A stretch of DNA of 64,000 bases from NCBI GenBank assembly GCA_022661535.1, contig JAKULF010000003.1:3410001-3474000 (forward strand), given 5' to 3'. The DNA is from Eutypa lata (lineage: Eukaryota > Ascomycota > Sordariomycetes > Xylariales > Diatrypaceae). The position numbers and the translations under genes were made by a program. Below the pieces are notes generated by a model, which saw nothing but the letters and a program-made list of their open reading frames with translations, made no database searches and was not told the DNA's origin. Shown here piece after piece: positions 3,421 through 14,080 of this stretch; the first letter of the stretch is position 1; each line of letters starts with the position of its first letter.

Positions 3421-3815
3421 AGAAGTAGCCGAAGAGTCTTGATAACGGTGAAAGCGGTAGTGGTCTTTTCAAATCTTAAGCATGGCGAGCGTCGGTGTCT
3501 GATATTGGGTATCTGATTGAAGTATTCGAAGTTTGATTTCTAATAAAACACACAACTTTTAAATACCGGCCATTGTTCTACTCTATGATGACATAATCGT
3601 CAACCCACTGAATGTCCATCTTCCATCCCGTCTAAAGTCTATACCCTATGAAACAAATATGTACATAATCTATGACTAACACAATATGATCATAATATCA
3701 TTCGTAGAAAGGGAGTCATTATATATATATATATGTATATATATTAATAGCGGGAAACATCAACCTCATGAGATGCTATATCGAGGCAACCGAAGAAATA
3801 TTCATCAATGATGTT
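3421..3815. other. Convergent 3' intergenic region with TA-rich tract
   Basis: Shared 3' region between two convergent esterase genes. It contains a short alternating TA/TG tract around 3718-3744 and otherwise plain AT-rich sequence. Confidence 0.5.
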
Positions 3816-4987
3816 CTAGACGAAAAAGGCATAAAGCAAGAAGAGACCTGAAAACTTGGTAGCACCGAAGGTCCTGAATGTAGAACCACTGCCTTCTGAG
3901 TCTGTCGGGTCAGAACCAGTAGATGTACTAGTTGGCGATGAAGTACTTGTTGGTGTGCCGGTAGAGGTTGGATCCCCGGTCGTGTATTGATCCCTAGAAC
4001 TGGATTAGCTATTGGGGATAATGGGATAGGGAGACGACATAATACGTACGGTAGTTGCTGCTCTTTGAAGAAATCCATGATCAAGCTGCTAGCATTGAAA
4101 GAGGCTGTACCGGGGGTATCTCCGTCCTCATCGACAGTAGCCGGCCACACATGGCCGACATTCTTTCCATCGTACACGAACGATACCAATCCCTTCTCAT
4201 CGCCATCGCCGTAGATATACTTTGTCGCTGAGCTCGTAATCTCCTGGTTTTCCGTCGGATCCGAGTTTAGCCCTTCGCGGACCGCCCATTGGGAGATCCA
4301 ATGTCCGACGTTGGGAAGACAACCTCCTCGCCGCTTGCCACCGTCGTAGGAGACAACATCGTCGGCTCCTCCTTGGAAAGCTAGGATCGGGATCCCATCC
4401 CGCCCGGGGCTGCAAGAGAATGTGACATTGTCCTCGTCGCACTGGCCATTATCGTCCTCTGCGTAATAGTACGCGCCAGAAACGGGAGCATAGGCCGCGA
4501 ATCGGTTCGACGAGGTCTCATTGCACGCTAGCAAGTTGACCATGCCTCCGCCTTGGCTCATCCCCGTGGCGTAGATCCTGCTGTCGTCTATGCAGAACTC
4601 GTCTTGAATATTATCGAGAACTTCAAGTGTATATCCGACGTCATCGGAAGTGACACCAGGCGAGACCTCCCACAGCATCTCCGAGTCGGTTTCACTGGAC
4701 TCTAAATATACGAGGATGTGATCCGTGTTGAAGTCGGACGTCGTCAGGAGATCTAGTTTCGCCTGTTGCGCAGCCGAGCCGCCTGCGCCGTGGAAAGAAA
4801 AGATGAGCGGCGTCGGCGTGCTGCCATCATAACCGGGTGGGAGCCAATACAGATACGTCCTGTCGCTATCGTTGAGGGTCACCTCCGTCTCGCTGGACGT
4901 GGCGACAGACGGCGCCGATCCGCAACCCGAAGCGCGAATGGAGACGGCGCTCCCAAGGAGAAGGGTGAGGCGCCAGCCGAAATGCAT
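3816..4987 (-). CDS. GPI-anchored CE1-type feruloyl esterase / LpqC-like esterase
   Basis: Predicted CDS complement(join(3816..3993, 4050..4987)), 371 aa. The alpha/beta-hydrolase resembles CE1 feruloyl esterases and PHB-depolymerase-like enzymes. It has an oxyanion loop in FSFHGAGGS, the nucleophile Ser in GMSQGGG, Asp in GGADDVVSYDGG and His in GKNVGHVWP. The start at 4987 was chosen because the protein then begins with a signal peptide (MHFGWRLTLLLGSAVSIRASG); an upstream in-frame ATG at 5035 would bury it. A 56-bp intron (GTACGT..CTAG) joins in phase and replaces an unrelated read-through tail by a Ser/Thr/Pro-rich linker ending in a hydrophobic stretch (FSGLFLLYAFFV). That is a typical GPI-attachment signal, so the enzyme is probably held at the plasma membrane or cell wall. 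Substrate unproven. Confidence 0.85.
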
Positions 4988-9181: not shown

Positions 9182-9543
9182 ATTTGAAGCTATTCAAACA
9201 AATTAAGGGTCCATTTTATTGATTAGTAAGCTATATATTGTAGGGGTTTCCTTGACGTTGAGGGCGCTATCCCTTGAAGCCGAAATTTCTGCTGGCCGTG
9301 CTGTCAGGCTCCGATAGAAACAGGACGTATCTAGTGGCCTGTGTGTATAGATGCGTCCGCTTTCTATCGGAGCCTGGCAGCCGTGCAGCCCGTGATACCC
9401 TTGAAGTAGGCTTTTGATATCCTGGATAGTGTTATAGCTTTTGCTTAAGGTGTTTGAGCAGTACATAGTTAATGGGGCTTACGGACCGAAATACCAAATA
9501 TATTTGACTTAGTAAGCAAATCAAATCCTGAATAGCTTCAAAT
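9182..9543. repeat. Small foldback element with 15-bp terminal inverted repeats
   Basis: A 15-bp sequence at 9182-9196 (ATTTGAAGCTATTCA) recurs as its exact reverse complement at 9529-9543. A long hairpin (9300-9381) lies close to the middle. TATTTG-rich segments outside the ends (about 9115-9153 and 9572-9611) resemble each other in direct orientation. This is the shape of a MITE-like, non-coding DNA element. No transposase frame is present. I did not find a clean target-site duplication, so the exact borders are uncertain. Confidence 0.4.
9300..9381. ncRNA. Long near-perfect hairpin (possible milRNA precursor or foldback core)
   Basis: Arms 9300-9320 and 9361-9381 pair over 21 bp with only one T-G wobble. 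After a 2x2 internal loop, 9323-9333 pairs with 9348-9358 over a further 11 bp with one wobble. The terminal loop is 14 nt (9334-9347). The stem is thus 32 bp within 82 nt, as in microRNA-like precursors. The pairing is symmetric, so the strand cannot be assigned. It may equally be the core of a dead transposable element. Expression is not shown. Confidence 0.35.
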
Positions 9544-10752
9544 CAATCAAATAGGGAGTGATATTTATTTGTATTTGTATTTGACAAGTATCCTGATATT
9601 CCATATTTGCTTGATTTGATGGACACGCTGCCGTGTGACTCATGTGTTGGATGAAACAAACATGCTGAGCCAAAGCAGACTATCAGAAATAAAATACAAT
9701 TATATCCAATAGGAGTATGCGAGGTCTGCATACAGGAATGAATGAATGAGTCACTCGGATATGTAGGTACCTGGTTTAAGAAAGTCTAAGGAGTCTGGTG
9801 GAGCCCCTTTAGGGGATGATAGACGGGGAGTTCGCCTCCCCCATGTGTAAATGCTTAACATATGCCAAGGAGGTAGGCAGTTAGGTTAATGTGATCATGA
9901 TATTTTGCGAGGATATTAAAAATACGACTGGTTACCTGAAGAAAACAAAGACTGCCTTAATTTTGTTCAAGACATTAAGTATAGAACCAGTGGGGCTCTG
10001 CCTCTTACTTACATAAATGAACCTTATAAGCAACTAGCCTGTAATTGGGTCCCAGCTTAACTACTACCTACAGGTAGGCATACAGTGAAACACAAGTGAC
10101 ATGTTTGTGTGAAGTATATTGTCTTAAACGATATATTCTCTTTGATGTTTAACGCAGGTAACCTGCGGTGTTACTTCACTCCGTAGGAGGCAGTGGTTGG
10201 AAAGTTCCACTTAAATAGAGTTGAATGATTGGCTGCCCTTTCTTCAACTTGGCTGTGCTGCCTAGCCTGCATAGTCACAACCATAAGGGGACCAATGGGA
10301 TTGGTGCCATGATAAGGTTGGAGTGACTGTGCTGCCTATGAACTGAGGTCAATGTACCCGTTAGGCAAACAAGGTCTGAAAATCCTGATTCTCAGAACCT
10401 AGCCTGCTCCCATAAGGCTCTCACTAAGAAGAAGGCTATATATTGAGCCAGCCGTCCCCAGATCACACCCTCCTTTCTCTTCTTCCTTTTACTTCACACT
10501 CTACCTATATCTGAAATCACAAATACCAACAGTAGTTTTTGAGTATCGAATTGATCAGGGTTTTATTAGGTGAGATAATAAAACTCATTTATCTATTCAC
10601 GAAGACTCCAACCTTCCATCCCCTTTCTTTCCCTTCCTACTTAGTCTAACAAGCACCTCAAGTCTCAAGTATTTCCTACTTATATTATATTACATAGAAG
10701 TCTTAAATATCACCTTCCTCTAGCTATATCTGAGCACTCTCTATCTCACATT

Positions 10753-13155
10753 ATGGCACGAACTAAGCAGACCGCTAGATCTTCTAAGAGTAAGTTCTCC
10801 AAACATTGCTACCAACATTCTTTGCTTCCGTGGCCACGCTTCCTGACAACAAGGTAGTTCGGGATGACTGGTCTGAGGAAGAGTCTGAATCTGACGTCGA
10901 AGTCGTAGAGGAACAAAGCGAACTGAGCGACAAGCAGCATCGCGAGGTCCTCGAGGGTGTTTCGGAAGTCACCCCCTTGAAAAAGGATAGTACCGGTGTT
11001 GCTGAAGCTGCTAAGTTTGGATACCAGTCCAAGCTGATTAGCAACTGGTATGAACACAAGTGCCAGTATCAGTCTTGTCCCGATAGGTGGTCAGAGTTTG
11101 ACAACGTCGATGATGATGGCGTCGATCTCAAGCATCGGACTTCTCAAATTCCGATTGTTCACCGCCACATCTATGTCAAGAAGCACTGGGTCACGAGCTC
11201 TGTTACCTTCCAGGATCCTGCCATGAGAGTCGTCCTCGCGGAAGTACTGCGCAAGTACCAGGACCTCGATTGCGAGCTAGAGAATTGGACCTTCCAGCCC
11301 CCTTTCATGCCTTTAGTTCATCGCTGGGACGCACTTAAGAAGTATCATGCATCCGCTGAGGCCGAGGATCTCAAGAGCGCCTCTTCTGCCCTCCTCGCGT
11401 TCCTGGCGCCTATCCTGGCCACCTCGATCATTTCACTCGCTCAGACTAAGAAGACGGGCAAGGTCAACTTTCAGAACATCTGGCAGATCTTCCCTCCCAG
11501 CTCGCTGGTGATGACCAAGTTCTACGGCGTCGACACCATTTGCCGCATCATCAAGTACAAGCATCGTCCAGCAGATCGATGCAACCCAGAAGGGTGGGTT
11601 ATCGACATGGAGTACGTCGACTGGAATGGCGAGAACAGTGGCTACGCCACCACTAGTCTCACCATCTGGGAGTTTGAAGGCTACCGTCGAGTGACGGCAC
11701 TTCCCGTATTCCCCATTTCTTTCCTAAATGATATAGAAGGAACCAAAGCCAAGATTCTTGAGCGAGGTCGTAAATTTGAACGCCTCCGGGGCTACCATTT
11801 CATGGTCTGCAACGGTACAAAGGTTCTCCTCGAAACCGAGAAGCCTGAACAGCGCACTGTCAGTACCTCGCAACTTAGAACATTTTTATATGTGATGACT
11901 GACACGATCTCACAGGTGACCGGCAGAGTGTGCGTGGATGCTTATGCCTATTACCGCAGTCGTAACGTCGTCAAGCCTAACCTACGACCCTTGTACAAGG
12001 AGGTCAATGAAGAAGATTCCGATGATGCCAGTGCTGATGACACTGATATGTCGGACACACCCTACGAGATGAAGTTCTCCGTTGCCCCAGTTGAGGTCGC
12101 ATCCGCCGCCAAGGGTCCAGCTGAAAGGACCGAGGATTTGCGACCACTCACAGAAGAACACCTGCTGCTCACGTCTCCCTGGCTCAAGGGCTTCGACCTG
12201 AAGTCGAAGGACTGGTGCGAACTGCGCGTCGATGAGCTCAAGGACCTGGCTTGGAACGACGAGGCCTTCGAGAAACTCGTCCTGCCCGGCGGCGAGAAAG
12301 AGCTTGCATGGGCATTCGTGGAGAACAAGAGCCTGTCGAAGACCGGGTTTGACGACTTCATCCCCGATAAAGGTCGCGGCCTCATCATACTCATGTTCGG
12401 TCCTCCCGGTGTCGGCAAGACGTTCACGGCAGAAGCTGTTGCTGACAGATCCCGCGTCCCTCTTTACATGATGAGTGCGGGCGACCTCGGTACCCAGCCT
12501 GCGGACGTCGAGAAGACGCTCGACCGAGCACTGGAGCTTTGCCGCATGTGGAATGCCATGCTTCTCCTCGATGAAGCTGACGTCTTCCTCGGCGCCCGGA
12601 CTAACGAGAGTCTAGCTCGCAATGAACTTGTGTCCATCTTTCTCACTAAGCTGGAGGTAAGTACTCCTATTAGTCTCCTCCTCTTTTCCTGCTTGTGTTT
12701 GAAACTTCCCCACGAGATATATATTTTACTCTTCATTGGGAAAACACATTTATCCCGCCTTCACTATAGAGAGACGACAGAAACTAATGCCAATGGCACG
12801 ACAGTACTACCAGGGAATTCTCTTCCTGACAACGAACCGCATCTCCAGCATCGACCACGCCTTCCAGTCCCGTGTGGACCTGTTCCTCCCATACCACGAC
12901 CTGACTAGCGAAGCGCGCCGCCAAGTATGGGAGAACTTCATCAACCGGGCCGGTCGCGACAAATTCGACTTCGACGAGGGTGCGCTCGACAAGCTGTCTC
13001 ACCTCAGCCTCAACGGTCGCGAGATCAAGAATCTCATCAAGTCGGCTCAGCTCCTTTCTATCAAGAACAACGACAAGGTGCCTATGGAGCGCCTCTACAT
13101 GCTGGCGGATAAGCGCGTGCAAGCGCTCCAGGCTCTAGACGGGATCGAGGCCTAG
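10753..13155 (+). CDS. AAA+ ATPase (DUF7025-type) with histone H3-tail N-terminus
   Basis: Predicted CDS join(10753..10789, 10858..12656, 12805..13155), 728 aa. Exon 1 encodes MARTKQTARSSK; residues 2-9 equal histone H3 residues 1-8. A 68-bp intron (GTAAGT..CTGAC..GTAG) then joins in phase to an acidic stretch (DDWSEEESESDVEVVEE). The middle (about 60-400) resembles the fungal DUF7025 region found before AAA modules. The ATPase has Walker A GPPGVGKT (about 527), Walker B LLLLDEADVF (about 580), sensor 1 FLTTNR and arginines in AFQSRVDLFLPY, followed by a helical lid. The last intron (148 bp) restores the family junction KLE-YYQGILFLTTNR. The substrate is unknown for this large fungal family. 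An alternative start at ATG 10806, inside intron 1, would lack the H3-like tail. The ATPase assignment is firm; the H3-tail start is well supported by splice phase but needs transcript proof. Confidence 0.85.

Positions 13156-14037: not shown

Positions 14038-14080
<43 letters not shown>

Follow-up and report, generated by a model that had tools for sequence, protein, structure and literature searches.

A predicted DUF7025-AAA+ ATPase of Eutypa lata begins with the first eight residues of histone H3

The window, by which we mean the whole 64,000-nucleotide stretch analysed (G000:C10:3410001-3474000), carries on its plus strand a gene predicted to encode an AAA+ ATPase of 709 residues in four exons, with its start ATG at 10753. 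Exon 1 (10753..10789, 37 nt) encodes MARTKQTARSSK plus one nucleotide (phase 1) and is followed by a 68-nt intron (10790..10857, GTAAGT...CTGAC...GGTAG, its donor and branch-like CTGAC read by eye) and by exon 2 (10858..11858), which holds an acidic stretch, the N-terminal region and DUF7025. Intron 2 (11859..11915, 57 nt), predicted by eye from GT..AG, has a length that is a multiple of 3 and would be stop-free if retained. The first part of the AAA domain lies in exon 3 (11916..12656), together with GPPGVGKT (12399-12422), which we take to be Walker A, and LLLDEAD (12561-12581), presumably Walker B; beyond a third intron of 148 nt (12657..12804), exon 4 (12805..13155) supplies the end of the AAA domain (to 12882), an AAA_lid_13-like lid and the stop codon (13153-13155). 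Pfam places DUF7025 (PF22942) at residues 207-302 (11439..11726) with 88.8 bits, above its curated cut-off of 27, and the AAA domain at residues 504-619 with 68 bits (curated cut-off 21.2); AAA_lid_13 scores 21.8 bits, under its cut-off of 27. The AAA match is single, and Pfam finds no bromodomain. The closest solved chains, in the best 60 of 163 matches, are Afg2- and p97-type ATPases.

The neighbouring frames scanned, seven in the window, are ordinary and correspond to a tannase, a thioesterase-like protein, an aldo-keto reductase, a kinase-like protein, an Rpb3-type RNA polymerase subunit, PEX1 and MCM7. Two further features were seen in the window. At 14038-14079 a (CA)n repeat (14038-14065 and 14068-14079) precedes a short ATG frame with several cysteines, MCSHCKLMFYCQGCG..., possibly a small Cys-rich protein. 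At 9303-9378, GTCAGGCTCCGATAGAAA (at 9303) and TTTCTATCGGAGCCTGGC (at 9361) form a near-perfect inverted pair, which may be a hairpin or what is left of a small transposon.

The 37-nt first exon and its in-phase splice had been proposed in the preliminary description, and 10753-10789, the GT..AG intron and the acceptor at 10857/10858 agree with that model. Exon 1 connects to the downstream frame only once intron 1 has been spliced out; the acceptor AG that ends at 10857 keeps the phase whereas the AG ending at 10853 does not, and later in-phase AGs at 10881, 10902, 10908 and 10968 would leave the same tail on a shorter linker. The exon-2 frame opens at 10794 and the next Met after Met1 is residue 135, so that the N-terminal part of the protein needs an upstream start or exon. 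The 400 nt upstream of the start (10353-10752) contain no other ATG, the next one up being at 10352. With coding scores trained on 7 frames only and compared over six frames, the claimed frame of exon 2 scores 0.28 over the first 180 nt, against 0.2 for the runner-up, and 0.21 in the remainder (vs -0.05); intron 1 and the 300 nt upstream of the gene have negative scores. Exon 1 has a score of -0.07, the best of six, on a length too short to count.

Residues 2-9 of the predicted ATPase are identical to residues 1-8 of histone H3 (ARTKQTAR), as had been noticed beforehand and as the predicted protein bears out; its N-terminal peptide reads ARTKQTARSSKIRDD. With the initiator Met left aside, H3 ARTKQTARKS aligns with ATPase ARTKQTARSS in 9/10 positions: the position of H3 K9 is a Ser in the ATPase, and H3 S10 is a Ser in both. 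The tail is directly followed by an acidic linker (residues 15-37, 10863..10931, plus strand), probably disordered to judge by its composition. That this is not a histone gene, as already suggested, agrees with the acidic stretch behind the tail and with the Pfam comparison of the 709 residues, which at E<=0.001 returned no histone family and no histone fold behind the tail. An H3 query against the genome recovered H3, a divergent copy and a gene that we take to be CENP-A-like, which is our own label for this match, and did not recover the ATPase gene. Residues 1-55 compared with solved structures gave no match at E<=10, as expected at such short length.

The genome scans, covering 54.5 Mb in 29 contigs, show where else this N-terminus occurs; an ITS sequence of this genome, at C2:1214341, resembles those of Diatrypaceae (Xylariales). 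A seven-residue pattern placed at an ATG has three exact matches, namely the H3 gene (C12:437427, minus strand), the ATPase and an orphan, and the six-residue version returns the identical trio. The orphan, which we call the second carrier, lies on the minus strand of the contig that bears the ATPase, at C10:1468222 (L053, G000:C10:1463500-1473400, gene at about 3705-4723), and starts MARTKQTAKRYG. It is a predicted protein, unrelated to the ATPase, in which exon 1, MARTKQTAKRYGKGTITW, and a GTGAGT...CTAG intron are followed by a stop-to-stop frame of 259 aa; spliced together, the two exons give 318 residues. Its start, MARTKQTA, matches seven H3 residues, with R8 replaced by Lys. Pfam returns nothing for it, not even at E<=10, and a search of its own genome at E<=1 recovers only the orphan itself. 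In each of its exons the claimed frame narrowly outscores the other five (0.10 and 0.09), and the start of the orphan is less sure than that of the ATPase because the 600 nt upstream contain nine ATGs. A HET-domain gene is found about 1 kb away. Since seven residues of the tail also open an unrelated protein of this genome, the ATPase N-terminus looks like selected copying of the H3 tail rather than coincidence.

Other look-alikes are few. An eight-residue pattern with up to two mismatches adds only C1:603604 (MERTKQAAS). A 537-aa open frame at C1:2904718 (L081, 583-2193, plus strand) has within a basic low-complexity stretch the sequence RTKQTAR, PPRTKQTARRSGAF, which resembles H3 1-10; it has no Pfam match at E<=0.001 and was not counted as a tail carrier, its RTKQTAR being internal rather than N-terminal. 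In a wider look for histone-tail mimicry, a pattern for the H4 core gave two genome matches, in frames of 46 and 228 aa, neither of them H4; the canonical H4 gene was missed, perhaps owing to an early intron.

The DUF7025-AAA family is large in this genome and spread over many contigs. Scoring 63 of 122 candidates, we found at least 68 matching stretches for the ATPase, two of them its own, many being exons of one gene and some containing internal stops. Similarity of the paralogues to the ATPase starts at residue 88 or later. In the 11 paralogue regions inspected, several of which have introns that make the true starts uncertain, no frame starts like H3 and none has ARTK or RTKQT; nor does the genome-wide scan reveal a further contiguous tail.

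The preliminary description held that an eight-residue match placed at the N-terminus is very unlikely to arise by chance, and our estimate agrees: in a proteome assumed to comprise 15,000 proteins, 2.7e-6 are expected to start with Met-ARTKQTAR and 4.0e-5 with Met-ARTKQTA, on residue frequencies taken from 10,379 residues of window open frames of >=250 aa, some of them perhaps non-coding. Across 257 Gb of prokaryotic contigs the eight-residue codon pattern has 10 matches, of which 7 start as H3, one is MASTKQTAR (admitted because the Arg codon pattern also covers Ser) and two are frames of 28 and 19 residues from their Met; thus none of the 10 is a non-histone protein longer than 28 aa. The contigs L045, L046 and L048-L052, filed under prokaryotic genomes or MAGs, contain the start of, or whole, eukaryotic H3 genes, apparently as contamination, and L046 follows H3 for 15 residues only, as at an exon end. 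Viral contigs gave 0 matches to the eight-residue pattern, and the fungal genome gave 0 matches to one pattern with its residues in permuted order and 0 to the tail patterns read backwards. Given the low expectation and the prokaryotic and permuted-order controls, we reject a chance origin of the tail.

How the tail came to the ATPase can be judged in part from codons and flanks. Over the ARTKQTA codons (2-8), 4 nt separate the ATPase from H3, 5 nt separate it from the second carrier and 6 nt separate the second carrier from H3, all differences being synonymous; with codon 9 included, ATPase and H3 differ at 6 of the 27 nt of their first nine codons, again synonymously throughout. Single changes in H3 codons 2-9 are synonymous in 28% of cases, so that six of six has p of about 5e-4 without selection, and the peptide itself appears to be selected. 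Upstream of the two genes, the best match between ATPase and H3 is an 18-nt pyrimidine-rich stretch, outscored or equalled by 1/200 base shuffles and equalled by 8/300 random pieces of the window; downstream, the score was reached by 121/200 shuffles. A captured H3 promoter or longer H3 piece is unsupported, the upstream match being matched by random window pieces. These data bear on the proposal that the tail is the relic of a gene fusion, in which the ATPase acquired its first exon from the 5' end of a copied H3 gene and has kept a tail without any special role. Such an origin would be in keeping with the presence of a divergent, apparently decayed H3-like copy at C18:1291278 (L038), MARTNNIARKASGGK..., 53% like H3 over residues 1-56, and with the retention of H3 S10 in the ATPase, and the synonymous changes could predate the fusion, having arisen in the donor H3 copy, in which case they would be uninformative on selection in the ATPase. 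However, no H3-like DNA lies up- or downstream of the tail beyond the 18-nt stretch, the genome's H3 gene lacks an intron at codon 12 (it matches the H3 query unbroken to residue 73), every one of the six differences in the tail is synonymous and an unrelated second gene has the same seven residues, and we regard a functionless relic as unlikely, if well short of negligible. The all-synonymous differences together with the lack of convincing H3 DNA in the flanks therefore favour selected mimicry at the protein level, with fusion as its possible origin. The H3-like copy at C18:1291278 directly follows a long CATACAG-type tandem repeat.

The tail might instead serve the ATPase internally, as a pseudo-substrate or gate for its own AAA+ ring, or by taking the place of H3 in a histone-chaperone reaction, much as ATAD2-type ATPases thread the N-terminus of H3. 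It does sit on an AAA+ protein beside an acidic stretch, and the AAA+ protein Yta7 has been modelled, in the part of the work considered here, to draw the H3 tail into its chamber beginning with the N-terminus (PMC9898759). Yet the second carrier, without any Pfam match, has no AAA domain, the AAA domain of the ATPase scores best against Afg2-/p97-type chains in the best 60 of 163 matches, and Pfam finds no bromodomain in it; we regard internal use as distinctly unlikely. Least probable of all, in our estimate, is that coincidence or a wrong gene model accounts for the match, the protein starting elsewhere and the ARTKQTAR stretch being untranslated. An exon of just 37 nt, which coding scores cannot judge, leaves some room for an erroneous model, but the ATG is the sole one in 400 nt, donor, acceptor and phase fit, and nothing would constrain a stretch that is not translated to match the H3 protein sequence; against coincidence stand the expectation and the controls described above.

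The reading that we find best, and towards which we lean without strong commitment, is that the ATPase tail mimics H3 1-8, without K9, and serves to hook a reader of the H3 tail. H3-tail mimicry had been put forward in the preliminary description; it is strengthened by the exact H3 1-8 sequence and by a second carrier that uses other codons, and it is narrowed by the replacement of K9 with Ser. Removal of the initiator Met before Ala is an established rule, and a free ART-K4 end is recognised by PHD fingers, LSD1, BIR domains and Set1. Loss of Met1 would leave A-R-T-K-Q-T-A-R as a free end, borne by a flexible acidic linker, and several copies of the tail would be present per assembly, should the ATPase form a ring. 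A protein that grips the H3 N-terminus (an LSD1-type demethylase, a PHD-finger protein, a BIR protein or Set1) might then bind the ATPase instead of, or besides, chromatin, with the consequence that the ATPase would be tethered to a reader complex or the complex kept off nucleosomes. Judging from the known specificities of such proteins, readers of K9 (HP1- and Dim-5-type) would not be the target, because K9 is absent, and only readers of R2-T3-K4-R8 could recognise the ATPase tail; as the two carriers have only residues 1-7 in common, the R2-T3-K4 end is probably the important part. Candidate partners in the genome are an LSD1-like gene (SWIRM plus amine oxidase) at C10:2413774 and a pair of BIR matches at C9:653375-653903, each interrupted by in-frame stops that reflect either introns or a broken gene.

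What is new here, at the level of predicted proteins, is the H3-tail pattern in two unrelated non-histone proteins besides H3 in one genome. Imitation of the H3 N-terminus is so far known from one virus and from a few animal proteins, whose matches are partial. More tentatively, and with somewhat less than even confidence, we suggest that a small set of non-histone proteins is used as H3 tails, that two unrelated genes of one contig separately gained ARTKQTA, that readers or enzymes of the H3K4 type are recruited or titrated in this way by other machines, and that the AAA+ carrier is the first known with an exact H3 tail. If this is true, decoys or hooks for the machinery that reads H3K4 can evolve within cells, the short peptide offers a simple system for reader binding, and antibodies against the H3 N-terminus could, in fungi, also pick up proteins that are not histones.

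SNAG domains are N-terminal and are not known to be identical in sequence to H3, and the tail of shugoshin Sgo1 is not known to have the exact H3 sequence. In the excerpted literature on which our comparisons draw, SNAG domains are described as mimicking the H3 tail and recruiting LSD1 (PMC12612597). The likeness to SNAG factors such as Snail1 and GFI1 is that a short H3-tail-mimicking domain recruits an enzyme of the H3 tail (the same excerpt of PMC12612597), whereas partner binding by the ATPase is only proposed; SNAG domains occur on animal transcription factors, and the ATPase tail has eight exact residues on a fungal AAA+ protein. The N-terminal VRTK of PAF15 is read by the UHRF1 PHD finger like the ARTK of H3, according to the portion of PMC8034647 considered, which is likewise an xRTK motif at a non-histone N-terminus, but a look-alike of four residues compared with eight in the ATPase. 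The N-terminal tail of Sgo1 has been proposed, in the excerpt of PMC12420818, to mimic the binding of H3 to the survivin BIR domain; Sgo1 is a mitotic factor, and for the ATPase a BIR protein is a candidate partner. Influenza NS1 also bears an H3-tail-like sequence on a non-histone protein and meets the H3K4-reading machinery, as the corresponding part of PMC12937675 reports, but its tail is viral and C-terminal, whereas the tail of the ATPase stands at the N-terminus and comes from a gene of the cell itself. The open-licence PMC literature searched has no mention of DUF7025; for MARTKQTA it includes, by title, no fungal non-histone protein and one paper on EZHIP, an H3 K27M-like inhibitor, and for fungal H3-tail mimics no title among the matches listed concerns one. 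With its own fungal DUF7025-AAA family the ATPase shares the order of DUF7025, AAA and lid-like end, and it differs from the inspected paralogues in having the tail. ATAD2, Yta7 and Abo1 resemble it as AAA+ ATPases linked to the H3 N-terminal tail (PMC9898759, in the part cited above), but they combine a bromodomain with two AAA modules, whereas the ATPase has one AAA and no bromodomain; those proteins bind the tail by bromodomain and pore, whereas the ATPase is predicted to carry the tail itself.
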